Source of the DNA: Meghimatium bilineatum
Lineage: Eukaryota > Mollusca > Gastropoda > Stylommatophora > Philomycidae
Reading direction: 5' to 3'
NCBI GenBank assembly: GCA_034231615.1
Contig: CM067298.1
Span: forward strand, 1,617,834 to 1,681,833
Length of the DNA stretch: 64,000 nucleotides
Under the pieces are notes generated by a model. That model was given only the letters and a program-made list of their open reading frames with translations, was not told the origin of the DNA and searched no databases. The position numbers and the translations under genes were made by a program. Of the stretch, positions 34,701 through 62,499 are shown piece after piece (the first letter of the stretch is position 1; each line of letters starts with the position of its first letter).

Positions 34701-37700
34701 AGTACAGTCATCCCTCGGTTCATTTATCAAGGCCTCAGTACATTGCGCATTGTTAAAAAATATTCATCAAAATTGAGGAATTGCAGTGCGAAAGTTTCAT
34801 GCATGCCAGCAGAAGGCAGGGTGTTCCCACACAATTCAAAATCCACGTCTCTGATTGGCTGACTAGCATTCCGCCATTTGATATCCCTCCAACTCAGGAA
34901 TCTCGCAAACTGAAAACCTAGACGTTTCCCCCATCTTCGCTCTCATACCCAGCGAAGACGACCTATCATTCAAGTGAATTATGTACCTTGTTATAAAAGA
35001 AAAGTTGTTATAAGAATAAAAGAGTTCTAAAAACATATTTACAGTATATACACTTTACACACACACGTATCATATTTATATCATTTATACATTATTTTAT
35101 GTATGTTATTTATACTATTAATATTTTATTTACATGTTTGAAACTATTCTTTAATGTTATAATGATAACATATGCACTTATATGGTTTCATATACACTTA
35201 TTGATATTATACATACACAAAAAATGTATGTGTGTTAAAAATGAGAGGATGACACTACTTCATGGTTTTTCACTTATCGCGGCTGGTTCTGGTCCCTATT
35301 AACTGCGATAACTGAGGGGTGACTGTATTATAATAATACTTACAAATTATAATAATAATAATACCACATAATGTCATAAATTTAATTACCATAAAATTGA
35401 AAATCAGCAAACGAAAGGATAAAAAACATTTTAATAATTGATAGATGTCTTAAAGTTTGTGGCTAGTAAGATGGACACTACTATCAGACCATTGTTTGTA
35501 TTTATAGATGTCTGGAAGTTTGTGGCTGGTATGATGGACGTTACTATCTGACCATTGTTTGTATTTATAGATGTCTTGAAGTTTGTGGCCGGTATGATGG
35601 ACGTTACTATCTGACCATTGTTTGTATTTATAGATGTCTTGAAGTTTGTGGCCGGTATGATGGACGTTACTATCTGACCATTGTTGGTATTTATAGCTAT
35701 AACCATAAAAGTATTCTTTTATATTTTTAAAATGTATTTTGTAACAAGGTCAGGCCATGAAATTATTTGATTGTTATCAATTGTACATTCAAATTTCCTG
35801 ACTGATTCATCATACCTTGGTGATTTCCGTAGCATACTGGTTAAACTGTTCGCTATGTACTCAAGAGGATGTAGGTTCAAATTCTGCTCAGTGTCTCTTT
35901 ATAAAGTGGATTTTTTTCTCAGATCTGTGAGGATTATCGCTTGAAGCTATGGAGTTACATGCTGTAAAAAGTAATCTCGGCAGATGACATGCAACTTCAT
36001 TGAGAGAGGGATGGAGTACATATAGGATAACCCAAGTACAATGAAATCCATCCTCTATGGCTCTTGAGACATTTTTTTTTATTAATCATAACTAATAATC
36101 TGAACACATAATTAGATGCCCGTCCTTTTGTAGTTGGAGCCCGAAATGGAAGAAAAGAATAGTAACACTGTTTACTTTCCATGCATGTCATAGGAGGCGA
36201 CTAAGGAGATTTTTGGGTGGTTGGTTGTCCAATTCCATACAGGGTGAAAGTGATCCAGAACTATGCTGAAATTGGATGTGTCAGGCTGAGGGCGTAGATA
36301 TCGCAGCTAAACTGTAATCTATGATACAACGGGCGAATGCAGAAGAAGAATATGTCAAGTGTATAAGAAGAATTGGAATGAATTTATGAAACAATTGACA
36401 TATCAATTACCCTCCATATTAGCTCTGCTGCCAGCTGGATCTTCAAAGTAGCAACCCCTCAGAGATGTGCCCTCCAGGTTAGCACATAGCATCTTGACAC
36501 CCAGCAGATTAGCAGCCTGAATGAGAAACACATGACATGTGACTACAGATTGTACAATGTGACTACAGCCTGAATGAGAAACACATGACGTGACTACAGA
36601 TTGTACAATGTGACTACAGCCTGAATGAGAAACACATGGCATGTGACTACAGATTGTACAATGTGACTACAGATTGTACAATATGACTACAGATTGTACA
36701 ATGTGACTACAGATTGTACAATGTGACTACAGATTGTACAATGTGACTACAGCCTGAATGAGAAACACATGGCATGTGACTACAGATTGTACAATGTGAC
36801 TACAGATTGTACAACGTGACTACAGATTGTACAATGTGACTACAGATTGTACAATGTGACTACAGATTGTACAATGTGACTACAGATTGTACAATGTGTT
36901 TATAACATCTTCAGCTCCTGTATACTCATGCTAGGTCAATTACCTTTACTTTGCTCAATACAAATTACATACCCTAACTTACCCCCACCCACATATTGGA
37001 TTGGATGTTTTTTTTTTAAATGGTGTAATGATGAAAAAATGCATATAAACATATTTGTAAAATAACTGACTCGTTAGTTAGTTAGTTAGTCGTCGGATCA
37101 TCATCAATGCACAATGGACACATCCATAGTTGCTCCGATTTCTCCTTGAGTGTATCCGCCATCACACTTCTGCTGACAGTACCGGTCCTATGCTGGTTGA
37201 CCATCATTCTTCTGCGCCCTCCAAAATGTTCACCTCTAGCAACACCGCATTTCAATCCCTGATCTTTAATCCTAGCCATTGAAAAGGAATCATCATCCAC
37301 ATTAGTCTCACTCTCGCGTATTATATCTCTTAAGGAGTTCAAAACGTCAGCGTGATCCATTGCCCCATCGCCCTGTGCCACAATCGCGCATGATGCCAAT
37401 TGATCCGCTCTTTCATTGCCTCTAACGCCCACATGTCCCGGCACGAAAATAAATGTAACCACTTTCAAGCTTGCCTTTCTCAAGGCCTCAATCCACTGTT
37501 CGCGAACGAGACCCATTTGTACCTTCTTAATCATACTCATAGAGTCACTCAAGATGAAGACCTGCGTTACCTTTTGTGTGCGTAGCCACTCAAATGCCTT
37601 GGTCACCGCCATAGTCTCCATGGTCATACTACTCGTAGTGACCGCAAAGGCACCATTTTCCTGCTTGATCATTTTACCTGCGCACTGAGCTGTAAAGGCC

Positions 37701-46700: not shown

Positions 46701-49700
46701 AAAATGAATGAATGACACACTTACCTGACATCTGAGTTCCTGATTTGTTGGTGTACTAATCAACCTCAATACCAAATCTCGTCTAGTCAGTGGAGTGTCA
46801 TCGTCTGGAAGCTGTTCTCTCTGGCATCATTCAAAGATAAAAACCGGGTTATCTGGTTGCTAGTCAGTCTGTTTAGTTAGCTAGTTTAGTAGGTCAGTTA
46901 GATTTAGCTAGTTTAATTGGTCAGTTAGTTTTAGCTAGTTTAGTTAGTCAGTTAGTTTTAGGTGGTTGGTCAGTCAGTTTAGTTAGTTACCAGTAGTCAG
47001 TTAGTTTAGTTAGTTGGTTAACAGAACCAATAATACTGAACTTTGAGCATCTATGGACGTGTCCAGAGTGACATAATGATGACCTGACGACTAACGAACA
47101 GTGTATTTGTCAATTAAGTATGTATGTGTATACTTTTATCAAACCTAACATGTATGTATGTTTGTGAGTGTACGTGACACTCAATCACGTGCCATGTTTG
47201 TATGTTTGTGAGTGTACATGACACTTATCTCAATCCCTAGCCATGTGTGTATGCATGTTTGTATGTGAGTGTATGTGAAACTTATCTCAATCACCTGCCT
47301 TGTATGTTTGTATGTGAGTGTATGTGACACTTATCTCAATCACCTGCCTTGTATGTTTGTATGTGAGTGTATGTGACACTTACCTCAATCACCTGCCTTG
47401 TATGTATGTATGTTTGTATGTGAGTGTACATGACATCTCAATGACCAACCATGTATTCATGTATGTGAGTGTATGTGACACTTACCTCAATCATATCTTC
47501 CAAAGTTTCTATCAATGAAGTTAAACCAAAGAACTTTGCCTCTTCTAAAACACCTGTAGAGAATATATTTTATTAAGCAGTTCATCTCATGGCAAGAAAT
47601 ATCTAAATATAGCAGATAGAAATTTGCACACAAACAGTTCAAATATCAAATCCACAACAAAGGTTGTCTATGATAGATTCTACCTTCAATTTCCTCTGCC
47701 TCATCTTGGTAGCACATTGATAAAATTGTAAGCTGCCAATGTCTTTGTGACGTTCACCCAATTTTATTTCTGTTTATTTCTTGGTCAACCATGAGCTTGA
47801 CCTTCTAGTTTGTTTCTTGCCGTCAACCATGAGCTTGACCTTCTAGTTTGTTTCTTGCCGTCAACCATGCGCTTGACCTTTTGGTATGGTTTTTAATAAA
47901 CTAATATGTATTTTTACCAACAACATTTTTATAATGAATCTACTAGTATTACAATATTCTGACATTAAATCTACCAGTATTACAATATTCTGACATTGAA
48001 TCTACCAGTACTACAATATTCTGACATTAAATCTACCAGTATTACAATATTCTGATATTAAATCTACCAGTACTACAATATTCTGACATTAAATCTACCA
48101 GTATTACAATATTCTGACATTAAATCTACCAGTATTACAATATTCTGACATTGAATCTACTAGTATTACAATATTCTGACATTGAATGTATATACAAGTA
48201 TTTGAAACAGCTATACCTTCTGGGTTGACAAATTTATCCAAGATCAGACGACCATGTCTCAAATAGTTGAGGATAGGTTCAAAATAAAGTGGACTTCTGT
48301 CTATCAGATAAGCTCCGGACTCATCCACTCGACTGTTCCATTCCACTTCTGAAAAACGAAATTTCATGCTTTGAGTTCAACAAATGCTACGTCATTAACT
48401 GTGATGTTGCTTCAATTCTTGATTCAAAACCAGCATCATGGTACAGGGAACAAGCACAGAAGTCAATCTCTCTCACTTCTCTCTTTCATCCACCATCACA
48501 GAATGTACACACTGAAAGTGCCAGTCAAATGTTGATTATGTGATATCTGTATTTTCCCCTGACATATTTTGACACCAAATTCTATATCAAAACTTTATTT
48601 CTGTATTATATACAACAAATTACTGCAGTTGTCCATCTGAGATATTGATCATATTTGACAGATATTTGTTCATCTTGTGATATGAACAGGTTACAGAATA
48701 CCGCGTTAGCACAGTGGTTAGCGCACTGGCTTCGCATATGAGTGGTCCTGGGTTCATTAACCAGTTGAGGCAGAAATGTTTTCAGATCGCAACAGCTCCC
48801 GGGTCGACCCAGCCTTAAATGGGTACCGGATTAATCCGGGAAGTAAAGACTGCGAGGGAGAGGAGATAGCTACCGCCCTCATTTGCAGAGCCTCTGAAAT
48901 GTGAGATCGCTAAAATCTTGCACCCCTGCGGCATTAATAAATGCTATGTGTTACTTTACTTTTTTTTATGAACAGGTGACTTTTTATGGACCTATGGTTG
49001 TTTTATATACTGGTAATTAAAATGTAGCCATCTGGGAAGCCTTTTCTTAGCATAATCATTTTCTTCGTATTGTTGTAGTAACATATTACTGTGTCATGTT
49101 GTCTCTTGCTTGTTTGACTTGAATTCTTCCCAACCAATATTTAAGAGTATTCTAAGACATTTATTTTCAAATGAATTTAATTTTCTGGTGCCTTTATTAC
49201 TTGATTATTATTAATTATTTCTATGATAACAGCTATCCATGTTGCTTGTATACACAGATATATGGTAACAGCTATTCACATCATAATATTTCATACTAAC
49301 ATCAGGAAACCAAATATCATATGAGAAGCCACATGTGTGTTGCCAGGATCCAAGACAGGAGTAAAGAATAACAACATTGTTTACATTTCACGCAGGTCAA
49401 AAGAGGTAACTAAGGAGGATATGGGGGTGGAGTTGGCTGCCCAATCCCATATTGGGTCAAATTGATCTAGAAGCCATGCTGATGTTGGATGTACCAGACC
49501 AAAATGTGCAGATATTACAGCAAAGCTGTAAACGATGATATAAGGCATCCCGTTCTCAGAACTACATCCTGCAAATCTGCAGGAGTTTGAGAACAAATGC
49601 AGAAGAAGATATGAGAAACAAAGATATATATCAACAAACAGAAGAGTTCCTCATACAAAAACATATGTTCAGGTATTTCCATACATTCATTGATAAACAT

Positions 49701-52700: not shown

Positions 52701-55700
52701 GCCTCCATGAATTCAGTCGTCAGCAGGAGGTCCTCACGGTTGCCCCACAGCTTCACCTTCAGATCTGTCTCTTGATGCCATATTTTGGTTCTCACGTCAT
52801 CAAAGAGTGGGCATGTCTGCAGAATATGTTCTGGAGTCTGGGGACCCTTTTGACATGGGCATTGATCAGTTTGGGCAGCCTTTATTTTGTGGAGATGTGC
52901 TTGTAGTCTGCAGTGTCCTGTGCGAAGTCTAAAAATTGTGGTTTGTTGTGACCTGTTTAGCTTTAGAATAGGGTCCTGTGGAAAGTTACTGCCTGTTCTC
53001 TGACTCCATGTATGTTTGTATATTCCTTTGATGAGGGTTTTTGCTTCAGTCAGTGATATTCTGTGGTGGAATTGTTCCTTTTTTGCACCTGCTTTTGCCA
53101 GTCTGTCAGCTCCTTCATTTCCTGCTATTCCACAGTGTGCAGGGATCCACTGCAGCACAACTTTATTGTTGGCAGATAGTTGATTTAGAAGTTCTACAGT
53201 TGTTTTTGTTAGGATATCTTTTGGTTCCTTTTGGATGGTTTGGAGTACTGACATGCAGTCACACAAGAAGACTATGTTAGCTCCTTTGAACCTCCGTTCC
53301 TCTAGAGCCTTTGATGCTTCCAAGATTGCTTGTAGCTCTGCCCTGTAATTTGTTGATAATTTGCCAGTAGCGATTGAGAGTTCTAGTTTTGGGGTGTTTG
53401 GTATGAGTATTAGTATCCCAGCTCCTCCTTTCTTTACTGCACCCTCTGATGATCCATCTGTGAAGACATGAATCCACTGTGAGGTAGGGTATTGGGTGTC
53501 TAGGTGATCAAGTGTTTTTGCCTTAAGGGCAGTAGGGGTTTCCATAGTTTTTCTCTCAATGCCTGGTATTGTAAGTTTTGCTGTATATATGGGTGAAGTG
53601 TTTGTGATGTTGCAATATGCTTCTAGCTGTTCCCATTCATCCGGATTGTTGCTGGTTACTTCTTTATTGGCTTTCATAAGTTTTTTTGATAGGTGATTGA
53701 AGCTTGGTCTTTTCAGTCTGTTTTTTGTTAGTTCTTTTGTTTTTTCATGCATAGGGTGATGTTTCAGACGTCTAAATTTTTCTGTCATTATTGTGATTTT
53801 CTCATCCCTGCGGTCTGTTAGGTTTTGTAATCCTGCTGTTGCTTCCATTGATGTTATAGGTGTGCTCCTTAGTCCTCCTGTTATGATTCGGAGACCTGCA
53901 TTTTGAATTTTGTCCAGCTTTTGAAGATTGGTGTTTGCTGCTGTTGCATATGTGGTCAATCCATATTCCAGAGTTGGACGAATGTGACCTACATAGACTT
54001 GTCTTATGGTTTTTATGTTGGCTCCCCAATCTGTCCCAGATAGTTTTTTCATTATTTGTAGTCTGCGTGTGGCTTTATTTTCTGTCTCTTCAATGTGTGA
54101 TCCCCAAGTAAGTCTTTTGTCAAATTTTAGCCCCAGGTAGACTGGGGTGTTTTCTTTTGGGAGTGGGGTATTGTCTAGAGTGAGAGTATAATTTTCAGGC
54201 TTTGTGGAGAGGGTGAAGAGTGTAGTGACGGTCTTACTTTTGTTTATTTGAACACCCCAGGTTTTTGCCCACTCTTCAACTTTGTTTATTGCCTCCTGCA
54301 TTCTAACTTTTGCAACTCCAATGTATTCTGATTGGGTCCAGATAGCAAGATCGTCTGCATGGAGAGCTCTATGTACATATGGTGTGAATAGTTTTGGCAG
54401 ATCGTCTATAAAAACTATAAAGAGTGTGGGGGACAGAATTCCTCCCTGTGGGACACCTTCTGTTATGTTGACCATTTTACTTTTCATTCCCTGGAGTTTG
54501 ACTCTTGCATGTCTGCCTCGTAGGAAGCTTTTTATCCACTGAAACATTTTGCCTCTGATTCCTTTCTGGGCAAGTTTTAGCAATAGCCCCTCTTTCCAGA
54601 CTTTGTCAAAGGCCTTTGTGAGGTCAAAGAAGGTGGCTAGGAGTTTTGATTTTTTCTGGAAAGCATCTTCTATTTCCTGGGCAAGGTATGTTGTTTGGTC
54701 CTCAGTGCATCTGTGTTTTCTGAAGCCTGATTGGCAGTCATCTAGAAGATTGTTTTCCTCCAGGTGGTTTAAGAGTCTGTTATTCACCATTTTTTCCATG
54801 ACCTTTTCTAAGCAACTAAGTAGACTGATAGGGCGGTAACTTATTTTTTTGGTTTTTGGTTTTCCTTTCTTGGCAATTGGAATTATTTCTGCCTCTTTCC
54901 ATTCTTCTGGGAAGATCCCTTGCGCCCATGATTCATTAAAAAGGTCTAGGATTCTGCTTCTACCCACAGGACCTAGGTGTTGGAGCATTTCATTTATGAT
55001 TCCATCGGGTCCAGAGGCTTTCTTCTTTTTTAGATTTTGAATTGCCATGTTAAGTTCTGATTTGTGAAAAGGTGAGGTCATTGTGCCTGGGCAAGGTTGA
55101 TGTTTATTTACAAGGTTTTTTGTCTCTCGTCTTACTTCAGCAGTTCTTGTTCTAGTTATCTTAATTTTGCTTTCTTCAGCATAGGAGTCTGCTAGAATAT
55201 TTGCAGCTCGTGTGCCAGTGTAGGACTTCCCCTTGTCTTCTATGATGATACTACTTTGGGGGTTGTTTTCTTCATTGAGACACTTGATAAGTTTCCACAT
55301 TTTTGTTGAGTCTTTTTCCATGTTGAGTGTTGCTGTTTTTTCTTTCCAGCTGGATCTAATGCTGTTTAGCTTTTCTCTCCTGAAAATTGCTTGCAGTCTA
55401 TTGTGTTCAGTGATATTGGTTTCTGTTGGTCTAGTTTCCATCTTGGATCTTGCAGCAGAGGCTTCATCATGCATAGCCTGGAGTTTTTTGTTCCAGAAGG
55501 GTTTGTAGTTTTGTCTTCTTCCTCTAGGTATACTGTTGTTGGCAGCTTCCAGGATTATTCCTGTTATTAATTTTGCATCTTTCCGTATATTTCTTGCTGT
55601 AAGATGTGTTAGTAGTTTTTCCTCTGTAAGGCGTTGGTAAGTGTCCCAGTTAGCCTTTTTGTAGTTCCAGCTAGCGATTTTGTGTTGTTGCTTTTCTGTC

Positions 55701-58700
55701 TTGTGGTTCCCTTTTATTGTTAATATTACGGGCTTGTGGTCACTCCCACCAAGCTGTTGTGCCACTACTCTTTCTGTCACACGTTGGATGTCTTCTGTTG
55801 CAATGGCCAGATCTGGAGTGCTCTGAGATTTCCATCGTCTGGAGTAAAAGGTTGGCTCTGATAGATGTTCATTTATAAGGATTAGCCTATTTTCTATCAT
55901 CCAGTCTTCTATGTCTTCTCCTCTCAAGTCCATAGTTGGGTAACCCCAGCTTGGGGAATGACTGTTGAAATCTCCAACTATAATATGATTTGATGATGTG
56001 AGAGGTATTGTCCTGAGGTGTAATTTTTTGTTGTTTGGGCAGTAGAAATTTGTGATAATCAGTGGTTTTGGGGTTGTATGTAATTTGATGGTGAGATGTT
56101 CTGAGTCCTCTGGGTTACGTGCGATTTCTGTAGTAGGTATGTTATTTCGTACCATTGTGATGATCCCTCCTTTGTGGCCTAATCTATCTAATCTGAAGCA
56201 TTCAAAGCCTCTGATGGAGAATCTGTTGCTGTCATTAAGATGTGTCTCCTGAATGCACAAGACATCAATCTTTTGCTTTTGAAGGAAATTCTGCAGTTCT
56301 AATTTCTTCTTAGCCACACCCTCACTGTTCCACTGCATAATTTTGATTGTGTTTTTGTTGTCCTGATTGGTTTGGCCGGTTGCTCTACTCTGTTTAATCC
56401 CGGGTCCCCGATACACAGAGTCATCATCAGTAGCTTTTGGTGGACCCATTCGAGGCTGGGGGTCCGGAGCTCCTCCTGCCTGGCGATGAACCACAGGGGC
56501 AGCCCCACTTCGTATAATAAATCCGAGCATAATCATTAACTGTATAATGCGTACATGTCCCATTTCCATTGCTGGGTACCCACGCCTATTCAGGCTGACA
56601 TGTTCCGTCTTCGGTGAGGGAAGTTATGGAGTCTTCCTATCCATGTTCTTGGACATCCTAGCACTGCCCGCAAGACATCGGAGGTTTGTGGAGTGGCCTT
56701 CTCCTATTTTACTGTCAGGGTTGTCTCCCATAGCCTTTCCATCTCCCGATGGTGACTGCAAGGCAGCAATTTTTTTTGGGGAAAAAAAAAAAAAAAAAAA
56801 ACCCTTCCCCAACGCGCTCCTGGCATGGAGTTCATTACTCCACGCCAGCAGCGTGAGCTTATAGCGGCTCATACTCGCTTGAAGCTGCCCGTCACTGGAC
56901 ACATGGGGTATTTCAGTGGGGATATCAGCACCGACTGATATCCCGCCCCGTCCTGGTAGGCAACAGCACCGGTTTGGTCCGCGGCTGCTTAATTGCAGCA
57001 AACACTCCATATATGGACATTTATGGAGTGCCCTCCACTATCCGCCACCTGTGGACGCGCCTGGTAGGGGTCGGTAGACCCTCCAGGATGAAGTTGTCCA
57101 ATGAATCAAGTCTGCTAGGAAATATTTTCTTTCGACACCTTGCAGTCTTATTTTGAGATGTGCAGAGCTGAGGACATCATCTTCTGCAGTCGAGAGGATG
57201 AGCAACATTCTCCACCCTTTTGAGAAAATTTATCGTTTAGGGAGGAACTAAGGAAGTTACTGTAATGAACTAGAAAGACTATCTTTGAGTTAACAATTGG
57301 TTAATTAGTGAAGATAGGTAGATTGACAGCCTGGGTTTTGTAAAGGCAAGGAAATCTAGGCAGGGTTTATGTCTAATGTTCCAGGGAGACTACTGAGCTC
57401 AAAAGTGAGTAATCACAGCCGAAGACGGATTTGTTGGGCCATTGGCGCAAATAAAACGGCAACACAATGCATGTCAATTCTCTGGAATACATTCAACTGG
57501 AAATCTTGTAGGACTATTGTCCAATTACAAGAGAAATCCAGCGGAAGTTTGAGAATGAATGCTGCAGAAGAAGAAGAAAAGTGAGTAATCTATGTGGAAT
57601 GCTTGTGAAGTGCTGACTTATACATGTAATTCTTTTCCTCCTTACCTTTTGTAAGATTGTTATTAAACGTCGATCATGTCTGTAATGACAGGATTCTTCT
57701 TTGCTTATTAATTTCAACTATTAGTTAGATTAGGTATTGCAGGTGGAGCCTACATCTCTCTCAATTCGAGTATACACAACACACCATCTTTAGAAGTACA
57801 ATTACCACCAAACCAGAACTACAATACGAAATCAGAAGGAACTCGCAGACCATTGGAGAATGACTGTTAAGTCAACAAGAATTAAAAGTCAAGATTATAA
57901 GCAGGGAAGATACAGTTGAGTTTGTGTGTTAGAGAAAATGAAATAACAAAGGTTACTTTCACATTGGGTTTCTCTATTACATTGCTGCCTTTGTGGCTGT
58001 CAAAAGACCCTTGTTTATTACATTTGCATCTTATTTCTAATAATCACACAATTAATAAAATACAGAAAATGAGGTATTCTCACATTCATTAATGTACCTT
58101 CTCATTCAATTATCATGCTCACCAGCCTGTCAGCTCTCTAATTACCACATCCTCTCCCCCCCCCTCCCATGCAAACATGCCTGGCATGAATATTAAACAC
58201 AAAAGTATTCTCATGAAATCAGAGTGATCTCACCTTGTGGTTGTAAATAATTTCCCACCAACATTAAGAGTCAGCCAATCGGATATGCAAGAACCAGCAC
58301 CAACTGTTAATATCATGTTGCGTTGATGACCTCGAGCATGGTTTACATTCTGGGCTAAATATCAAGAAAAACATTTTCACATCAAATACAAATTTCAATC
58401 AAACAGAAATTTTGATCTCACAGAAAAACATGTTGTATGAAGCTGGCAACAGGATGTTTACACAATTCAAATCATGCACCAGATTTTCAGCAGTCATCCA
58501 AGAGTGCTACAAACAGCGAGAGTCAAACAATCATGTCCGTCCCAGCTTTGCTGTTCACGGTAATGTATGCCAACGACAGGTCACTGTCAACATGACACTC
58601 TATAAATAAGAGGTCATGGTGACTAGATTATCAGATCTACCACCGCCAATGGTTGCAAAGCACCAATATAACCAAACTGAATTAATGCCTGCGGTTGAAA

Positions 58701-61700
58701 GTAGTGTACCTCACCACAAGAGGTACATTTTACTTAACCAGAACCAAAGTTCAACATTTCATCTGTCTATTCATCTTCTTCTTCTTCTGTGTTCATTCTC
58801 AAACTCCTGCAGATTAGAAGGATTAGTCTGGAGAACAGAATATATTGTCATGGTTTACAACTTTGCTGTGATATCTGCACCTTTCAGTCAGACAGATCCG
58901 ACTTCAGCATGGCTTCTGAGTCATCCCATGTCAAATTCACCTCATAACCTCCTTTAGTTGCCTCCTACGACATGGATGGAAGGTAAACAGTGGTGCTATT
59001 CATTGTTCCCTTTTCAGGCTCCGGCAGCACATGGGCACTGTCCTATTCCTAAAAGAATATTCAATTCTTCTTTCTTCTTCTTCTGCGTTCGTTATATATT
59101 CAATTCAACTTAGTAGAAAACAAATGGTTATAATGGCATACCTATAAATGGTTCCCCTCCTTCTGAGACATACAGAACATCCTCATCCCTGGAGATAAAA
59201 ATGAGAACGTTATAAATATATCAACAGCCATCTGCATAACTCAAGACTGATTTATACAATAACAGGATGTCTATAAAGTAGCTGTGCATTCATTGACATT
59301 GCTGGTGACAGTACATTGCATGAATTGTGGGTATTTAGTGCAGATCTCTGTGAGACATCACTTATGTTACAACATTTATGAAAGAAACACTACTGCTCAT
59401 GTCAATCCTGTATTGGGTAAGTATCTGGTAGAACACACAAAGTGATTTCTTGGTCAGCTAATACAAGTTGACTCTGCAACTAATAGTAATCTGCTGAGTC
59501 ACACTGTACACTGGAGCATGGAAGTACACAACTTTCAATGATGTCATATTTTGAATCAAAAATTGCATTTAAAGACTTTTTTCATTTATCCTCATGCTTC
59601 CTACTTGAATTTCCTTGTATAAGTTATTATTTGAAGCAACATTGTCCTGTCTCTATGATTTTTATTTTCACAGGCCTATCAGTCCTTGTAGTCTGCATAC
59701 TGATGTTCTATGTGTGTGGTCCTGAGGATACTTCAACACGTGTACGGCACGTTTCTTTTTGTTGTAAGAGTCTTTGTCTCGATTAGTCTTTTCTCAGTGA
59801 CTTGGGTGCATAGCTTAAATGGGTTGACAAAATCACATCATTATTTATTTAGGGATGTGGTTGGTCAGGTGCCGTGCAGTTCGCCTTTTTACTGGACTTG
59901 CAAAGTGATTCTGTGTCACTAGAACAGACCTGGTTCAATTCCAGTCAGCCTTAAGAATTTGTTCACTTATCCTAATGCTTCCTACTTGAATTTATTTTAT
60001 AGGATATCAACCATGGTTGTTACATTTATATGTTGATGATATGACATCAACCACAGCTGTATTGAGATGTTAACTTGTACTCATCAATATAACAAAGATG
60101 TAATCTAACAGAACATTTTGTATGTCTGTACTGTCCATAGTTTGACCACCTGTTATACAGTATAGTAGCAGAACCAACCAATTTGTTGGTTCGCTCGTTT
60201 CCCTCCATAGTTGTGTGTTCTGTGAACAAAGTTTAAAGTGATTTTGTGAAGTGAAACCCAATTCTTAGAACTTTCCAATGACTCCACCCATCGACTACGC
60301 ACTTCACCCGCTTTCCCTTTCTGAATCATACTCATTGAACCAGAGAAGATGGATGTGTCAGACAATTGGCACAAATAAAATGGTGACACAACACATTTGC
60401 ATTCTATGGACTACATCCTGCTGGAAATCTAGTAGGACCATTTTCCTACTACAAGGGAGATCCAGCTGGAATTTGAGAATGAACGATGAAGAAGAAGATA
60501 CTCATTTAGACGGTATGCTTTCACAAAGATAGACTAGCGATTTCAGCCAGTTTAGGACTTTCGTTACGGCACACCAAGGTATATTAAGTATGAATATTAT
60601 TTTCGTACTTTACCTCACAACAGTCAAATCTTCTCATAATTTACCTCACGTCAAATCTTCTCATAGTTTAGCTCACAACAGTCAAATCTTCTCATTGTTT
60701 ACCTCACAACAGTCAAATATTTTCATTGTTTACCTCACAACAGTCAAATCTTCTCATAGTTTACATCACGTCAAATCTTCTTATAGTTTACCTCACAACA
60801 GTCAAATCTTCTCATAGTTTACCTCACAACAGTCAAATCTTCTCATAGTTTACCTCACATCAAATCTTCTCATTGTTTACCTCACAACAGTCAAATCTTC
60901 TCATAGTTTACCTCACGTCAAATCTTCTCATTGTTTACCTCACAACAGTCAAATCTTCTCATTGTTTACCTCACAACAGTCAAATCTTCTCATAGTTTAC
61001 CTCACGTCAAATCTTCTCATTGTTTACCTCACGTCAAATCTTCTCATTGTTTACCTCACGTCAAATCTTCTCATAGTTTACCTCACGTCAAATCTTCTCA
61101 TTGTTTACCTCACAACAGTCAAATCTTCTCATAGTTTACCTCACAACAGTCAAATCTTCAATGCATCCACCATGACAGTTATAAATTTGAGAAGCAGTGA
61201 TGCCTAACTTTATGCTTATGCTTGTCAGCAGATCTTCCCAGGTGGCTGGTACCAAGATAACCTGTAATTACATCAACATATGTCAGGACATCAGTTAGAA
61301 ATTACATCAACATATGTCAGGACATCAGTTAGAAATTACATCAACATATGTCAGAACATCAGTTAGAAATTACATCAACATATGTCAGGACATCAGTTAG
61401 AAATTACATCAACATATGTCAGGACATCAGTTAGAAATTACATCAACATATGTCAGTACATCAGTTAGAAATTACATCAACATGTCAGAACATCAGTTAG
61501 AAATTACATCAACATATGTCAGGGCATCAGTTCGAAATTACATCAACATATGTCAGAACATCAGTTAGAAATTACATCAACATATGTCAGGACATCAGTT
61601 AGAAATTACATCAACATATGTCAGAACATCAGTTAGAAATTACATCAACATATGTCAGGACATCAGTTAGAAATTACATCAACATGTCCGGACATCAGTT

Positions 61701-62499
61701 AGAAATTACATCAACATATGTCAGGACATCAGTTAGAAATTACATCAACATATGTCAGAACATCAGTTAGAAATTACATCAACATATGTCAGGACATCAG
61801 TTAGAAATTACATCAACATATGTCAGGACATCAGTTAGAAATTACATCAACATATGTCAGAACATCAGTTAGAAATTACATCAACATGTCAGGACATCAG
61901 TTAGAAATTACATCAACATATGTCAGGACATCAGTTAGAAATTACATCAACATGTCCGAACATCAGTTAGAAATTACATCAACATATGTCAGAACATCAG
62001 TTAGAAATTACATCAACATGTCCGGACATCAGTTAGAAATTACATCAACATATGTCAGGACATCAGTTAGAAATTACATCAACATATGTCAGGACATCAG
62101 TTAGAAATTACATCAACATGTCCGGACATCAGTTAGAAATTACATCAACATGTCCGGACATCAGTTAGAAATTACATCAACATATGTCAGGACATCAGTT
62201 AGAAATTACATCAACATATGTCAGGACATCAGTTAGAAATTACATCAACATATGTCAGGACATCAGTTAGAAATTACATCAACATATGTCAGAACATCAA
62301 TTAGAAATGACATGTATCAGTCAGTATCAATTTAGACAATTCAATCACACCACCCATTCAGTCACAACATATTGAACATATGATCATCATAGAGACTCGC
62401 AGAAACAAATCTGAGCATAATTTCAAAACTCGTACATGACATTCATTAGCAAACCTTTCCATTACAATTAGTTCCATTTTTGAAGACAGTAACTCTCAT
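19607..62499 (-). CDS. KCTD9: KCTD9 orthologue, complete 12-exon gene (BTB/T1 + pentapeptide repeats)
   Basis: Spliced minus-strand gene. Coding exons, 5' to 3': 62499-62455, 61261-61140, 59188-59142, 58303-58234, 51087-51026, 48348-48217, 47553-47486, 46820-46725, 42501-42352, 36516-36411, 29144-29011, 19729-19607. The sum is 1,155 nt = 384 aa + stop (human KCTD9 is about 389 aa). All junctions are GT-AG and in phase and no exon contains a stop. Order of domains: N-terminal KHA/DUF3354-like region (about aa 1-72), BTB/T1 (about 80-180, with DWLTLNVGG and [18 protein letters not shown]), linker, then pentapeptide repeats A(D/N)Lxx (about 215-372). Known for the family: KCTD proteins oligomerise through the BTB and act as CUL3 E3 ubiquitin-ligase adaptors; the pentapeptide repeats form a right-handed beta-helix, presumably the partner-binding part. 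Introns total more than 41 kb and are packed with repeats. Exons were found by translated similarity recalled from the family, so exact splice choices (2-3 nt shifts at exons 6 and 8) remain inferred. Confidence 0.95.
19860..20370 (-). pseudogene. LINE 3' tail fragment
   Basis: Nucleotide match to the 8980-9400 LINE tail (tcgagcgatgtgatgctact, tttcattcattctaagc, cttcccaaccaatatttaag). Its distal end is duplicated as a 58-bp tandem (ctatgttccttcatctctga...). Confidence 0.75.
20612..20865. repeat. 28-bp minisatellite
   Basis: About nine units of tgacactacatttctacaat + agaattat, abutting the mariner relic. Confidence 0.93.
20868..21611 (-). pseudogene. Mariner-type transposase relic with a 7-residue coding minisatellite
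   Basis: Minus strand starts ATG (21611) with [16 protein letters not shown], the N-terminus of SETMAR-like mariner transposases. It then jumps to [20 protein letters not shown] and ends [17 protein letters not shown], the C-terminus (usually ...FQ..W..RW.KC...G.YFEG). The DD34D catalytic middle is missing. Between FHQL and YERC a 21-bp unit encoding YECFHQL is repeated about 22 times in frame (20908-21380). Confidence 0.8.
20908..21380. repeat. 21-bp minisatellite within the mariner relic
   Basis: About 22 nearly identical copies of gctggtggaaacattcatac + a; rare variants (gcagctgg, ggttgaaac). The 21-nt period keeps four frames open. Confidence 0.95.
22150..22225 (-). other. Penelope-like-element terminal motif (possible hammerhead relic)
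   Basis: Minus strand has TTGATAAAGGTCTTTTGGTC then GAAACGTTGTGTG. This resembles the CTGATGA-stem-GAAAC core found near Penelope/Poseidon-type ends, with two core substitutions. No PLE coding region here. 21612-22150 and 22225-22640 show no recognised gene. Confidence 0.35.
22640..23160 (+). mobile_element. Repeat family D, plus copy (possible LINE leader)
   Basis: Starts near gtctgtgggtctcaccaatg and runs to the endonuclease ORF at 23219. The bases before both LINE ORFs in the window (here and at 56570) contain cccagcaat. No good ORF1. Confidence 0.65.
23219..27174 (+). pseudogene. Decayed EN-RT-RNase H LINE (I/Ingi/Nimb-like)
   Basis: APE endonuclease at 23219-24115 ([19 protein letters not shown]) with stops. 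Reverse transcriptase in one open frame 24232-25605: [49 protein letters not shown] (R for the usual Q), [11 protein letters not shown] thumb/connection at 25610-26281 with stops. RNase H at 26290-26800 ([37 protein letters not shown]). C-terminal CCHC-like [19 protein letters not shown] ends at 27174. The 3' UTR includes an (aacc) run at 27200. At least four disabling changes: dead. It lies in KCTD9 intron 11, opposite strand. Confidence 0.88.
27460..27790 (+). pseudogene. Mariner-type transposase fragment
   Basis: Reads [20 protein letters not shown], later [21 protein letters not shown] frames, [19 protein letters not shown] and [18 protein letters not shown] blocks spread over three frames. 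This is the order of the C-terminal half of mariner/SETMAR transposases (VN...Y...L...PYSPDLAP.D...LF..LK). Heavily mutated. Confidence 0.7.
27990..28660 (+). pseudogene. LINE ORF2 C-terminal fragment with a 58-bp foreign insert
   Basis: Reads [20 protein letters not shown] then [18 protein letters not shown] (the FKYLGS...I.TRI..A block after the RT), further debris, and ends [13 protein letters not shown]...LVLE. At 28446-28503 it is interrupted by an inverted exact copy of 58 bp from the endonuclease region of the LINE at 24058-24115. Confidence 0.75.
28835..28912. repeat. 17-18 bp tandem repeat (4 copies)
   Basis: Units of agacagaatacacatgt, about 100 nt downstream of KCTD9 exon 11 in intron 11. 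Confidence 0.85.
29011..29144 (-). CDS. KCTD9: KCTD9 coding exon 11 (aa 300-344; pentapeptide repeats)
   Basis: Acceptor ctgcag; [21 protein letters not shown], then [20 protein letters not shown] and ADLE; donor GAG|gtcaga, a weak site. The match to human MEGSQMTGINLRVATLKNAKL is clear. Confidence 0.94.
29221..29375 (+). mobile_element. tRNA-derived SINE (family F)
   Basis: A-box-like ggcatagtggttaatg and B box GGGTTCGGATCCG, then a body sharing gctatgaaattac...gcagtatgtc with the copy at 35817. Confidence 0.6.
29994..33757. repeat. 23-bp satellite, about 163 copies, flanked by a 17-bp inverted repeat
   Basis: Unit ttagttactatttgtttgtt + ata, very homogeneous (variants at 2-3 positions: tattt/tactt, gtttg/gcttg/ctttg). 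Left edge 29977-29993 aatgtattattgttact and right edge 33758-33774 agtaacaataatacatt are exact reverse complements. Lies in KCTD9 intron 10. Confidence 0.97.
33775..34307. mobile_element. Includes a SINE family C copy at about 34161-34293 (+)
   Basis: 34161-34293: agatatgtcagaccattggc, ctagtagaaccattgtcctg and gaacgaacactgaagaagaa. The middle is shorter than in the full copies. 33775-34160 shows no recognised feature. Confidence 0.75.
34308..34680. repeat. About 40-bp tandem repeat with deletions
   Basis: Units of gtatgcacatggatgtgaca + gttatgtcagtggatgtgcc; later units are shortened. Confidence 0.9.
34705..35325. mobile_element. Pogo/Tigger-like MITE with TA target duplication
   Basis: Left end TA|cagtcatccctcggttca (TA at 34703), right end gataactgaggggtgactg|TA (TA at 35326). 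The ends are an imperfect terminal inverted repeat of the Tc1/mariner-pogo kind. Non-coding, 621 bp, in KCTD9 intron 10. Confidence 0.75.
35445..35700. repeat. 63-bp tandem repeat (4 copies)
   Basis: Units of atagatgtcttgaagtttgt ... gaccattgtttgtattt, 63 bp = 21 codons, hence an artefactual minus-strand ORF. Confidence 0.93.
35817..35995 (+). mobile_element. tRNA-derived SINE (family F)
   Basis: A-box region tttccgtagcatactggtta, B box GGTTCAAATTC, body cttgaagctatggagttaca. Confidence 0.65.
36118..36350 (+). mobile_element. SINE family A copy
   Basis: Begins gcccgtccttttgtagttgg, contains aggcgactaaggagattttt and tcgcagctaaactgtaatct, ends gcagaagaagaat. The 3' region is shortened relative to the other copies. 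Confidence 0.75.
36411..36516 (-). CDS. KCTD9: KCTD9 coding exon 10 (aa 265-299; pentapeptide repeats)
   Basis: Acceptor cattcag; [16 protein letters not shown], then [12 protein letters not shown]; donor G|gtaatt. Matches the family's ANLQGVKMLCSNAEG and NFEDPSG. The acceptor region is repeated three more times upstream, within the intronic minisatellite. Confidence 0.95.
36530..36902. repeat. 20-bp minisatellite containing copies of the KCTD9 exon 10 acceptor
   Basis: Mostly gactacagattgtacaatgt units, interspersed with agcctgaatgagaaacacatg at about 36567, 36620 and 36749. The latter is the intron-exon junction of exon 10 (minus strand catgtgtttctcattcag|GCT). Confidence 0.93.
37064..37074. 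repeat. Target-site duplication (11 bp), left copy
   Basis: aactgactcgt, identical to 39787-39797. Confidence 0.85.
37075..39270 (-). pseudogene. LINE RT-RNase H portion (3' part of a 5'-inverted insertion)
   Basis: Minus strand starts [11 protein letters not shown] (about 39265) and runs through RT fragments with frameshifts ([40 protein letters not shown]). A long open frame 38620-37082 then follows: [11 protein letters not shown] thumb, RNase H ([42 protein letters not shown]) and WMCPLC near the end. The 3' tail is an actaactaactaac run. The RT half is broken, so it is inactive. Confidence 0.88.
39271..39786 (+). pseudogene. Inverted 5' part of the same LINE (twin priming)
   Basis: Plus strand reads [20 protein letters not shown], then [40 protein letters not shown] and ends [13 protein letters not shown]. 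This is the EN-RT linker that should directly precede [11 protein letters not shown], which here lies on the other strand at 39265. One frameshift at about 39430. Confidence 0.85.
39787..39797. repeat. Target-site duplication (11 bp), right copy
   Basis: aactgactcgt; shows that 37075-39786 is one insertion. Confidence 0.85.
39850..42085 (+). pseudogene. 5'-truncated RTE-like LINE (EN end, RT, C-terminal tail)
   Basis: Open frame 39859-41415, without a proper ATG: end of the endonuclease ([28 protein letters not shown]), RT ([56 protein letters not shown]). Then a frameshift, FADDQVLF at about 41430, and a tail in mixed frames (GHVLR...[14 protein letters not shown], [19 protein letters not shown]) ending in (tgaa)n. 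A 40-bp insert with a 14-bp duplication sits at 41619-41686 and a deletion follows it. No RNase H. Clade assignment is by gestalt only. Confidence 0.85.
42218..42310. repeat. 27-bp tandem repeat (3 copies)
   Basis: Units of tatgttatcagtgtcaaact + tatctgt, about 40 nt downstream of KCTD9 exon 9's donor. Confidence 0.9.
42352..42501 (-). CDS. KCTD9: KCTD9 coding exon 9 (aa 215-264; pentapeptide repeats)
   Basis: Acceptor aacag after a poly-A/T stretch; [20 protein letters not shown], then repeats [18 protein letters not shown]; donor GAT|gtaagt. A phase-0 exon of 50 codons in pentapeptide register. A 27-bp repeat lies about 45 nt downstream in the intron. Confidence 0.95.
42615..42929 (+). mobile_element. 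tRNA-derived SINE with body (family E)
   Basis: Head gttgccaggcgattggtgcc ... B box GGTTCAATTCC at about 42685, then the body shared with 6836-7080. Confidence 0.7.
42941..43100 (-). mobile_element. SINE family C, full copy with target duplication
   Basis: Flanked by tgtttgtcatt (42930-42940) and tgtttatcatt (43101-43111). Minus strand starts cagccgaagacggatgtgtc, contains attggcacaaataaaatggc and ctagtaggacaatggtcctg, ends gaagaagaagaag. 160 bp. Inserted at the end of SINE E. Confidence 0.88.
43110..43635. other. Stretch without recognisable genes
   Basis: AT-rich intron 8 sequence of KCTD9; a short fragment resembling the SINE heads near 43170-43260 (tagggatgcggtgtggtcga). Nothing else seen. 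Confidence 0.5.
43639..44010 (-). pseudogene. LINE 3' tail fragment (RYKD type)
   Basis: Minus strand: [15 protein letters not shown], then [20 protein letters not shown] and SWEQV...[14 protein letters not shown], the C-terminal tail of a common LINE family (LRYKDVCKR.....I....WE..A.DR..WR). Frameshift at about 43880. Confidence 0.75.
44190..44325. repeat. 46-bp tandem repeat (3 copies)
   Basis: Units of tgtctgaataaggtggcttt + cttcacagaactgtatcaataaaaaa. Confidence 0.92.
44484..44599 (-). mobile_element. SINE family A, 3' half of an interrupted copy
   Basis: Minus-strand SINE A from its GAAG tail (cttcttctatattcattctc) to the core gatcctatatg; it continues at 45934. Confidence 0.8.
44600..45933. 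mobile_element. 1,334-bp unclassified insertion with 9-bp target duplication
   Basis: Flanked by tcctatatg at 44591-44599 and 45934-45942, splitting one SINE A. GC-richer than its surroundings. Contains about three to four copies of a 110-bp repeat (45090-45400; key: gcctgagcccatcgggtacg, aaccctttctct, ttccggt, gacagtagagttgga). No convincing ORF, no clear terminal inverted repeat or TG...CA ends seen. A 9-bp duplication is typical of Mutator-like elements, but that is inference. Confidence 0.7.
45934..46052 (-). mobile_element. SINE family A, 5' half of an interrupted copy
   Basis: Continues the copy from 44599: tcctatatgagatgagacag, aatctccttagtc, acgacatgcatggaagataa, gtgggccctagcaacacaca. 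Confidence 0.8.
46229..46279 (-). pseudogene. Orphan duplicate of the 3' end of KCTD9 exon 8
   Basis: 51 bp matching 46720-46770 with 6 differences. It includes 46 nt of exon 8 (reads ...PTNQELRCQ) and the former donor, now CAG|ttaag, so the GT is lost. It lies at the 5' end of the LINE tail 46280-46719, the position of a target-site duplication. Probably non-functional; use as a cryptic exon is unlikely because it lacks an acceptor and a donor GT. Confidence 0.8.
46280..46719 (+). pseudogene. RTE-like LINE 3' fragment inserted in KCTD9 exon 8
   Basis: Reads [70 protein letters not shown], then [20 protein letters not shown] in another frame, ending gaaaatgaatgaatga. The same family as 39850-42085. 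Flanked by a 51-bp duplication of KCTD9 exon 8/donor. Confidence 0.85.
46725..46820 (-). CDS. KCTD9: KCTD9 coding exon 8 (aa 183-214; linker)
   Basis: Acceptor gccag; [20 protein letters not shown] then [12 protein letters not shown]; donor CAG|gtaagt. Corresponds to the linker ending SELRCQ in human. The donor lies 10 nt from the 3' tail of a LINE fragment. A second, degenerate copy of the last 46 nt lies on the other side of that LINE (46234-46279). Confidence 0.92.
46850..47020. repeat. Degenerate tagttag-rich tandem repeat
   Basis: Irregular units of ggtcagttagttttagctag + tttagt, in KCTD9 intron 7. Confidence 0.8.
47130..47485. repeat. About 50-bp minisatellite containing copies of the KCTD9 exon 7 donor
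   Basis: Units of tatgtgagtgtatgtgacac + ttacctcaatcacctgccttgtatgtttg. The part cacttacctcaatca equals the exon 7/intron 7 junction (minus TGATTGAG|gtaagtg). One copy (47378-47389) keeps a perfect donor; others read cttatctc (GT lost). Confidence 0.92.
47486..47553 (-). CDS. KCTD9: KCTD9 coding exon 7 (aa 160-182; end of BTB)
   Basis: Acceptor ctacag; [23 protein letters not shown]; donor GAG|gtaagt (strong). Matches the family's GVLEEARFFGIDSLIEHLE. A minisatellite repeating its donor begins immediately downstream. Confidence 0.94.
47765..48200. repeat. 38-bp x3 and 31-bp x9 tandem repeats
   Basis: 47765-47885: cgtcaaccatgagcttgacc + ttctagtttgtttcttgc. 47920-48195: ttctgacattaaatctacca + gtattacaata. 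Both in KCTD9 intron 6. Confidence 0.93.
48217..48348 (-). CDS. KCTD9: KCTD9 coding exon 6 (aa 116-159; BTB core)
   Basis: Acceptor tttttcag; [18 protein letters not shown] then [15 protein letters not shown] and LDKFVNPE, donor G|gtatag. [17 protein letters not shown] is nearly invariant in KCTD9. The alternative acceptor 3 nt downstream (cagaag|) would drop one codon. Confidence 0.94.
48700..48972 (+). mobile_element. tRNA-derived SINE (family G), well preserved
   Basis: A box gcgttagcacagtggttagc, B box GGGTTCATTAACC, central domain ctcccgggtcgacccagcct + taaatgggtaccgg, tail tttactttttttta. The tRNA head and a conserved centre with AAATGGGTACC are typical of animal V-SINE/Deu-like families; exact family not assigned. 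Confidence 0.8.
49060..49190 (-). pseudogene. Short LINE tail fragment
   Basis: Shares gacttgaattcttcccaacc + aatatttaag and acatttattttcaaatga with 20240-20320. Confidence 0.65.
49330..49609 (+). mobile_element. SINE family A copy
   Basis: aggtaactaaggaggatatg, gctgcccaatcccatattgg, attacagcaaagctgtaaac, gcaggagtttgagaacaaat, then gcagaagaaga. The most complete copy of the family. Confidence 0.85.
49675..50602. repeat. 33-bp minisatellite
   Basis: About 28 copies of cattgataaacatttgttgt + actctcacagatt (left half) and ...attccaacacatt (right half). Divisible by 3, hence a 338-codon ORF that is not a gene. Confidence 0.96.
50665..50950. repeat. 70-bp tandem repeat (4 copies)
   Basis: Units ttgcttcttctataaacttg ... 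cagagttttgccttctagta; copies are almost identical, so recent. Ends 76 nt before KCTD9 exon 5's donor. Confidence 0.93.
51026..51087 (-). CDS. KCTD9: KCTD9 coding exon 5 (aa 95-115; BTB)
   Basis: Acceptor tttactatcag; completes Arg95, then [20 protein letters not shown]; donor G|gtatgt. MLARMF matches the family's MLAHMF. Confidence 0.92.
51100..52627. other. KCTD9 intron 4 without recognisable genes
   Basis: Non-repetitive AT-rich DNA, then small duplications: ttcctgagacaaccttgatt x2 at 52420-52490 and gaagtccagtgttccagatg x2 at 52530-52610. No product recognised. Confidence 0.5.
52640..57087 (-). mobile_element. Full-length I/Ingi/Nimb-like LINE
   Basis: 4,448 bp flanked by a 12-bp target duplication atgaagttgtcc (52628-52639 and 57088-57099). 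Layout on the minus strand: a 5' leader of about 518 bp (57087-56570) without a convincing ORF1, one ORF 56569-52682, a short 3' UTR and a (gaa)n tail ...gatcgcagaagaagaagaa. It lies in KCTD9 intron 4 in the same orientation as the gene, so it is transcribed through. Confidence 0.9.
52682..56569 (-). CDS. Intact LINE polyprotein: endonuclease, reverse transcriptase, RNase H
   Basis: 1,295 aa, no stops or frameshifts. APE endonuclease at about aa 75-285 (QWNSEG 79-84, QETH 107-110, GDFNSHS 199-205, SDHKP 276-280). RT at about 500-780 (SGPDG 519-523, [25 protein letters not shown] 647-655, [10 protein letters not shown] around 707, HADD 737-740 in place of the usual YADD). RNase H at about 1030-1170 (TDGS with D1038, YRAEL with E1078, D1104, NEGADRLA with D1154). 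C-terminal Cys/His motif [18 protein letters not shown] (about 1237-1254). The start ATG at 56569 is followed at once by a second ATG. The product would nick DNA and copy its own RNA into the site. A single ORF without gag-like ORF1 fits Ingi-type elements. Intactness suggests recent activity; whether HADD is catalytically normal is unknown. Confidence 0.93.
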   Translation of the reverse strand: MEMGHVRIIQLMIMLGFIIRSGAAPVVHRQAGGAPDPQPRMGPPKATDDDSVYRGPGIKQSRATGQTNQDNKNTIKIMQWNSEGVAKKKLELQNFLQKQKIDVLCIQETHLNDSNRFSIRGFECFRLDRLGHKGGIITMVRNNIPTTEIARNPEDSEHLTIKLHTTPKPLIITNFYCPNNKKLHLRTIPLTSSNHIIVGDFNSHSPSWGYPTMDLRGEDIEDWMIENRLILINEHLSEPTFYSRRWKSQSTPDLAIATEDIQRVTERVVAQQLGGSDHKPVILTIKGNHKTEKQQHKIASWNYKKANWDTYQRLTEEKLLTHLTARNIRKDAKLITGIILEAANNSIPRGRRQNYKPFWNKKLQAMHDEASAARSKMETRPTETNITEHNRLQAIFRREKLNSIRSSWKEKTATLNMEKDSTKMWKLIKCLNEENNPQSSIIIEDKGKSYTGTRAANILADSYAEESKIKITRTRTAEVRRETKNLVNKHQPCPGTMTSPFHKSELNMAIQNLKKKKASGPDGIINEMLQHLGPVGRSRILDLFNESWAQGIFPEEWKEAEIIPIAKKGKPKTKKISYRPISLLSCLEKVMEKMVNNRLLNHLEENNLLDDCQSGFRKHRCTEDQTTYLAQEIEDAFQKKSKLLATFFDLTKAFDKVWKEGLLLKLAQKGIRGKMFQWIKSFLRGRHARVKLQGMKSKMVNITEGVPQGGILSPTLFIVFIDDLPKLFTPYVHRALHADDLAIWTQSEYIGVAKVRMQEAINKVEEWAKTWGVQINKSKTVTTLFTLSTKPENYTLTLDNTPLPKENTPVYLGLKFDKRLTWGSHIEETENKATRRLQIMKKLSGTDWGANIKTIRQVYVGHIRPTLEYGLTTYATAANTNLQKLDKIQNAGLRIITGGLRSTPITSMEATAGLQNLTDRRDEKITIMTEKFRRLKHHPMHEKTKELTKNRLKRPSFNHLSKKLMKANKEVTSNNPDEWEQLEAYCNITNTSPIYTAKLTIPGIERKTMETPTALKAKTLDHLDTQYPTSQWIHVFTDGSSEGAVKKGGAGILILIPNTPKLELSIATGKLSTNYRAELQAILEASKALEERRFKGANIVFLCDCMSVLQTIQKEPKDILTKTTVELLNQLSANNKVVLQWIPAHCGIAGNEGADRLAKAGAKKEQFHHRISLTEAKTLIKGIYKHTWSQRTGSNFPQDPILKLNRSQQTTIFRLRTGHCRLQAHLHKIKAAQTDQCPCQKGPQTPEHILQTCPLFDDVRTKIWHQETDLKVKLWGNREDLLLTTEFMEAAHLPV
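57415..57576 (+). mobile_element. SINE family C, full copy with 14-bp target duplication
   Basis: Flanked by aaaagtgagtaatc (57401-57414 and 57577-57590). acagccgaagacggatttgt, cattggcgcaaataaaacgg, gagaaatccagcggaagttt, tail gcagaagaagaag. No clear pol III boxes. The tail is the same as that of the LINE at 52640, which may mobilise it. Confidence 0.92.
57600..58225. other. Stretch without recognisable genes
   Basis: KCTD9 intron 4 sequence next to exon 4; nothing identified besides a poly-C run at 58158. Confidence 0.5.
58234..58303 (-). CDS. KCTD9: KCTD9 coding exon 4 (aa 72-94; start of BTB/T1)
   Basis: Acceptor ttaacag; [23 protein letters not shown] and the first two bases of Arg95 (AG|gtgag). 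DWLTLNVGG is the start signature of the T1-type BTB domain. It is shorter than the human protein just before the BTB. Confidence 0.92.
58774..59040 (-). mobile_element. SINE family A copy
   Basis: Minus-strand copy: tail cttcttcttctgtgttcatt, tgctgtgatatctgcac, cctcctttagttgcctccta, ccggcagcacatgggcac. 100 nt from KCTD9 exon 3. Confidence 0.82.
59142..59188 (-). CDS. KCTD9: KCTD9 coding exon 3 (aa 56-71)
   Basis: Acceptor ctccag, then G completing Arg and [15 protein letters not shown], corresponding to the family's RDDDVLFVCEGEPFI. Donor G|gtatgc. 47 nt. Confidence 0.93.
59200..59850. other. KCTD9 intron 2, no recognised feature
   Basis: Unique AT-rich DNA; ORFs here have no recognisable domain. 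Confidence 0.45.
59850..59960 (+). mobile_element. tRNA-like SINE head
   Basis: tagggatgtggttggtcagg then B box GGTTCAATTCC; similar start to the heads at 42615 and 43170. Confidence 0.5.
60337..60497 (+). mobile_element. SINE family C, full copy with 9-bp target duplication
   Basis: Flanked by atactcatt (60328-60336 and 60498-60506). agatggatgtgtcagacaat, attggcacaaataaaatggt, ctagtaggaccattttccta, tail gatgaagaagaag. 161 bp. Confidence 0.92.
60605..61139. repeat. 31/27-bp minisatellite made of the KCTD9 exon 2 donor junction
   Basis: About 18 units of tttacctcacaacagtcaaa + tcttctcatag (27-bp form lacks acaa). On the minus strand each 31-bp unit reads GAAGATTTGACTGTTGTGAG|gtaaa: the last 20 nt of exon 2 and its splice donor. 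Array continuous with the real junction at 61140. Confidence 0.95.
61140..61261 (-). CDS. KCTD9: KCTD9 coding exon 2 (aa 16-55 plus two bases of codon 56)
   Basis: Begins after ttacag with [12 protein letters not shown], continues with [12 protein letters not shown], and ends ...DLTVV + AG before gtaaac; the split codon AG|G is Arg. This is the second half of the N-terminal KHA-like domain. The exon is squeezed between two minisatellites: a 34-bp array ends 4-6 nt before its acceptor, and a 31/27-bp array starts inside its own 3' end and donor. Confidence 0.93.
61266..62312. repeat. 34-bp minisatellite filling the 3' end of KCTD9 intron 1
   Basis: About 31 units of acatcaacatatgtcaggac + atcagttagaaatt; 30-bp variants (acatgtc). 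It ends within about 5 nt of the acceptor of exon 2. On the minus strand each unit carries TTTCTAACTGA, a branch-point-like sequence. Confidence 0.95.
62455..62499 (-). CDS. KCTD9: KCTD9 coding exon 1 (start codon, aa 1-15)
   Basis: ATG at 62499-62497 followed by [15 protein letters not shown], matching the family's N-terminal MRRVTLFLNG. The donor is AAG|gtttgc, a weak 5' splice site. Phase 0 into exon 2. The 5' UTR and promoter lie upstream (above 62,500); no TATA box or initiator was identified. Confidence 0.88.

Follow-up and report, generated by a model that had tools for sequence, protein, structure and literature searches.

The donor of exon 2 in the KCTD9 gene is followed by 18 tandem copies of itself, and we think it likely that this array is a mirage, in the sense in which the word has been used for amphioxus genes: a minisatellite grown by duplication of the donor, whose decoys are mostly silent and which is a near-neutral by-product of minisatellites lying close to exons. 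The array is not a one-off, either in the gene or in the genome. Repeats that span a splice junction are already known as a kind; what is less expected is their recurrence within one gene and the crowding of minisatellites at the exon edges that we sampled.

Results

KCTD9 is encoded on the minus strand of the window (the whole stretch of 64,000 nucleotides that was analysed) by 12 exons, which make up a frame of 384 aa; each of the 11 introns has GT-AG ends. The exons were located by tblastn with human KCTD9 and were then joined at splice sites. The frame is full-length and contains the KHA, BTB_2 and pentapeptide-repeat domains of Pfam. Its closest relatives are the proteins of the stylommatophorans Bradybaena similaris and Candidula unifasciata (83% identity, 99% query coverage); judged by sequence, the host is a gastropod nearest to the stylommatophoran snails, most likely a land snail or slug. 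The relatives in snails have 399 aa, and our model is shorter than these at the join of exon 3 and exon 4 (58234-59188), where a small extra exon or another acceptor may have been missed. Two further observations concern the introns: intron 4 harbours a stop-free frame of 1313 aa on the minus strand (52682-56623), perhaps a transposable element, and intron 10 a 23-bp array of 163.6 copies (29999-33756). The features discussed below are collected in Table 1.

Table 1. Positions in the window of KCTD9 exon 2, its donors and the arrays lying at KCTD9 splice junctions; a slash marks the splice junction.
Feature	Position	Strand	Located by
KCTD9 exon 2 (122 nt)	61140..61261	-	tblastn, splice-consistent model, alignment with 17 relatives
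True exon 2 donor, GAG/GTAAAC and next intron letters	61131..61142	-	donor-anchored sites, gene model
Minisatellite across exon 2 donor, true junction and 18 copies	60609..61159	-	TRF and unit tables
18 decoy donors of exon 2 array	60608..61111	-	donor-anchored unit table
34-bp array, about 31 copies, at exon 2 acceptor	61266..62313	-	TRF
49-bp array across exon 7 donor, GAG/GTAAGT and 6 copies	47149..47493	-	TRF, copies recounted
Array across exon 10 acceptor, TCATTCAG/GCTG and 3 identical upstream copies	36513..36898	-	TRF, recounted

Exon 2 ends in GAAGATTTGACTGTTGTGAG/GTAAACTATGA, and this 31-bp stretch recurs behind the exon. Exon 2 contributes its last 20 nt to the unit, such that the tandem repeat straddles the exon-intron boundary. 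The TRF call is a 31-bp unit in 18.8 copies, and anchoring on the donor gave 19 sites on the minus strand, namely the true donor, with its GT starting at 61139, and 18 sites behind it. The splice signal is present in the copies: GT is kept in 17 of the 18 decoys and the exact GAG/GTAAA in 16, the two deviants being GAT/GTAAAC at 60767 and GAG/CTAAAC, in which the GT is lost, at 60674. The decoy units have a mean pairwise identity of 94% (gaps left out), so the array is not a chance match. An earlier note on this DNA had proposed about 18 decoy donors grown from the exon 2 junction, which agrees with the 18 counted here and with an exon part that can be aligned in relatives. It had also described the unit as the exon 2 end plus its donor, with a single length of 31 bp; the composition stands, and the single length has to be dropped, since the spacing is 31 bp in 10 units and 27 bp in 8. 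An inflated or collapsed tandem repeat in the assembly would be a technical source of such a pattern. The array comes from one assembly, and the window was cut from that same assembly and is hence not independent of it; however, the two unit lengths occur intermingled in the array, as do several sequence variants, and further exon-edge arrays are present elsewhere in the genome, which makes an artefact very unlikely.

The repeated part of the exon encodes CIEDLTVVR, for which the alignment shows no gap in any of the 17 KCTD9 relatives, a set with snails at one end and lancelet and fish at the other; its Arg is nearly invariant. This gap-free alignment argues that exon 2 is the source and that the intronic copies are derived from it. 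The opposite direction, in which the end of exon 2 was recruited out of a pre-existing intronic array and did not seed it, would fit the smooth passage of the array into the exon, but it is disfavoured by the same alignment and we regard it as extremely improbable. On the other side, the GAG/GTAAA of the farthest copy passes into different sequence (GTACGAAAATAAT), where the intron may originally have begun.

We then compared the decoys with the true donor in strength. By a simple human donor table, the true exon 2 donor scores 2.51 bits, and 16 of the 18 decoys match or exceed it (14 at 2.51, one at 2.58 and one at 3.78). U1 complementarity, the scoring of which for each copy had been suggested in the earlier note, gives the same computed pairing of -6.9 kcal/mol for the true donor and for these 16 decoys. 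Intron 2 has 143 GT sites. Those that equal or exceed the true donor in score number 18, the true donor itself counted, and all of them are inside the array, one of them not being the donor of a unit. When exon 2 is extended to a decoy, the reading is ...VVR and then a stop (AGG TAA); the added letters start alike for every decoy, and translation of the first three bore out the claim that the use of a decoy would give Arg then TAA and truncate the protein at once. The decoys also leave possible introns between them and the true donor: exon 2 has AG at its end and the intron GT at its start, so that a stretch measured from the true GT to where a copy ends takes the form GT...AG in 17 of 18 cases. 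A recursive splice site would combine AG/GT with a good acceptor tract before it. AG/GT, as GAG/GT, is found in 16 of the 18 copies, and the one unit inspected has pyrimidines at 8 of 20 positions, the exon 3 acceptor at 16 of 20.

Decoys that score like the true donor, and any of which would halt the frame at once, speak for a regulatory role, in which some transcripts would use a decoy, gain the TAA and be degraded, with the length of the array setting the output of KCTD9. The use of two downstream repeat donors in human IFI6 points the same way (PMC4526556). However, the donor columns are without clear extra conservation, with 2 of 144 cells changed compared with 19 of 382 elsewhere (15 of these 19 changes falling in two shared columns), and amphioxus mirages are reported to leave splicing regular (PMC3087553). 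On balance such a role appears unlikely.

Exon 2 is flanked by arrays on both sides. The upstream one reaches to within 4 nt of the final intron base ahead of the exon, and it contains 29 CTAAC, which are branch-point-like, and zero AG across 1048 nt of the sense strand. These features, together with a true donor that is just 7th of 11 in KCTD9 by simple score, would suit a supporting role, in which the repeated donors add U1 binding behind a middling donor and the AG-free, branch-point-like array upstream aids the acceptor. Against it, the absence of AG is of little weight, since the consensus of the 34-bp array is itself without AG and the number of independent changes is too small to test, and the donors of exons 1, 6, 10 and 11 score weaker and none of them has a donor array. 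We consider that this support is distinctly unlikely.

Arrays cross two more KCTD9 junctions, namely the donor of exon 7 and the acceptor of exon 10. One of the six exon 7 copies keeps GTAAGT (47383), three read GAG/ATAAGT and two are otherwise broken. The loss of GT in five of the six could mean that strong decoys were selected away there, which counts against the view that the decoys are a silent by-product. The intact exon 7 copy, or any of the exon 10 copies, would lead to a stop if used. Arrays were also considered at exon 9, where the distance to the donor is 20 nt, and at exon 6, where it is 29 nt; they are not counted as mirages, as the donor is not contained in them. Altogether, 5 of the 22 KCTD9 junctions lie at most 20 nt from the edge of an array, compared with 0.9 expected when arrays are placed randomly within their introns (P 0.0005 in a post hoc test); with the two exon 2 arrays taken out, the figures are 3 of 20 junctions and 0.59 expected (P 0.016, also post hoc).

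The genome assembly (1.61 Gb in 32 contigs) was surveyed at the exons of a kinase family, for which the search gave 135 matches; 40 of these were hand-picked (no internal stop, open frame of at most 192 aa) and taken with 600 nt on each side. A clear array of a locus's own donor was found in 1 of the 40, L052 (C12:34019657-34021063), which from its sequence we take to be a GRK-like kinase. There, the exon end GGGATCTCAAG/GTATGT is accompanied by three AAG/GTATGT copies in 25-nt steps, and every one of these donor copies would lead to a stop if used. Together with the KCTD9 arrays at exon 7 (donor) and exon 10 (acceptor), this places junction-spanning repeats in more than one gene, at donors and at acceptors. 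The junction-copy test also flagged L038, L046, L051 and L058, which were left uncounted as the flagged GT or AG is not the evident splice site.

The 40 kinase loci hold 31 arrays, and their near edges, in 100-nt bins from the exon match, number 18, 3, 4, 2, 3 and 1. The 18 arrays of the first bin are spread over 15 of the 40 loci and 18 of the 80 edges; 4 overlap the kinase exon match and 14 lie within 100 nt of it without overlap. Pseudo-exons, set in 20 stretches of 10 kb drawn at random from contig C1 and by construction clear of any overlap with arrays, give a background of about 2 arrays per bin per 40. With the 4 overlaps set aside, the first bin still shows about a sevenfold enrichment, and the other bins are near background; in this comparison match edges are inexact as splice sites, the loci are hand-picked, the pseudo-exons lack matching for introns and transposon cover is not taken into account. 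Array occupancy declines more gently, from 0.139 to 0.07 across the 600 nt at the kinase loci. The window itself is rich in minisatellites (period 10-100), which make up 27.6% of it compared with 7.6% of the 20 random stretches of contig C1.

Discussion

Turri et al. reportedly described in 1995 a minisatellite in human IFI6 (6-16, G1P3) that provides splice donors. In amphioxus, minisatellite-like tandem duplications across exon-intron boundaries, 5' or 3', were named mirages and occur in Adh3, the globins BflGb6 and BflGb9, troponin C and PGBD5 (PMC3087553, PMC3902484). The statement of the earlier note that no tandem array of a gene's own donor had been described is thus superseded, as amphioxus mirages (PMC3087553, PMC3902484) and human IFI6 (PMC4526556) are such cases. 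The anatomy reported for amphioxus is the same as that of the KCTD9 exon 2 array, with repeats that span the junction and copy the splice signals. AG/GT signals are present in many of the amphioxus copies, and regular splicing is reported to be undisturbed (PMC3087553). The host differs, being a gastropod for the KCTD9 array and amphioxus for the described mirages, and so do the dimensions, with 18 copies of a 31/27-bp donor unit in KCTD9 and 3 to 6 units of 150-160 bp reported for BflGb6 (PMC3087553); the units of 10-72 bp given for amphioxus Adh3 are close in size to that of KCTD9. A literature search, largely without subscription papers, yielded no mollusc case.

The likeness to IFI6 is that a minisatellite lies at the end of an exon and has splice donors in its units. 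In the human gene, splicing reportedly uses two downstream units, which gives three mRNAs (PMC4526556). In contrast, the length of the KCTD9 unit is not a multiple of three and the use of a decoy meets TAA immediately, such that the KCTD9 decoys predict a stop and no longer protein isoform of the kind made from repeat donors. Intron gain through tandem-duplicated AG/GT proto-splice sites has also been discussed for mirages (PMC3087553). In KCTD9, too, the duplicated AG/GT leaves behind a GT...AG stretch with the potential to turn into an intron; however, KCTD9 has no gained intron here, and the copies sit within an existing one.

Our preferred reading of the exon 2 array, a mirage with mostly silent decoys, would start with a short piece of sequence across the exon 2 donor that was duplicated in tandem; the array would then have grown through unequal exchange or slippage, the latter being a presumed cause. 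Coding constraint would fix the end of the exon, such that added copies would accumulate on the intron side. Splicing would most likely stay at the exon-proximal donor, with the decoys mostly silent; that the first site wins is favoured because RT-PCR in amphioxus is reported to have given this outcome (PMC3087553). IFI6 counts against the silence of decoys, since two downstream repeat units are reported to serve as donors there (PMC4526556). A transcript spliced by mistake to a decoy could in principle be repaired by a second splice, which would excise the added part as a small GT...AG intron, although this second step is doubtful because of the poor pyrimidine tract. In vertebrate extracts, when two identical donors are paired, the intron-proximal one can be preferred, contrary to an exon-proximal rule.

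More widely, exon edges in this snail genome may give birth to minisatellites, within about 100 nt and in some cases across the junction itself. Many genes would then carry multiplied splice sites or branch-point-like sites, and an exon-proximal rule would bypass a dozen or more equal sites; we put this forward tentatively, as a serious possibility and not as our expectation.

The mirage architecture is now seen outside chordates. The true donor and the 16 decoys that equal or slightly exceed it in computed strength form a row of 17 donors, each decoy being fatal to the frame. They constitute a natural test: RNA from the snail would reveal whether the spliceosome picks by position when strength is equal, and the lengths of the array among individuals would reveal any effect of repeat number on the output of the gene. 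The concentration of minisatellites around exon edges points to a mutational process that recurs, and it may be a source from which new introns arise.
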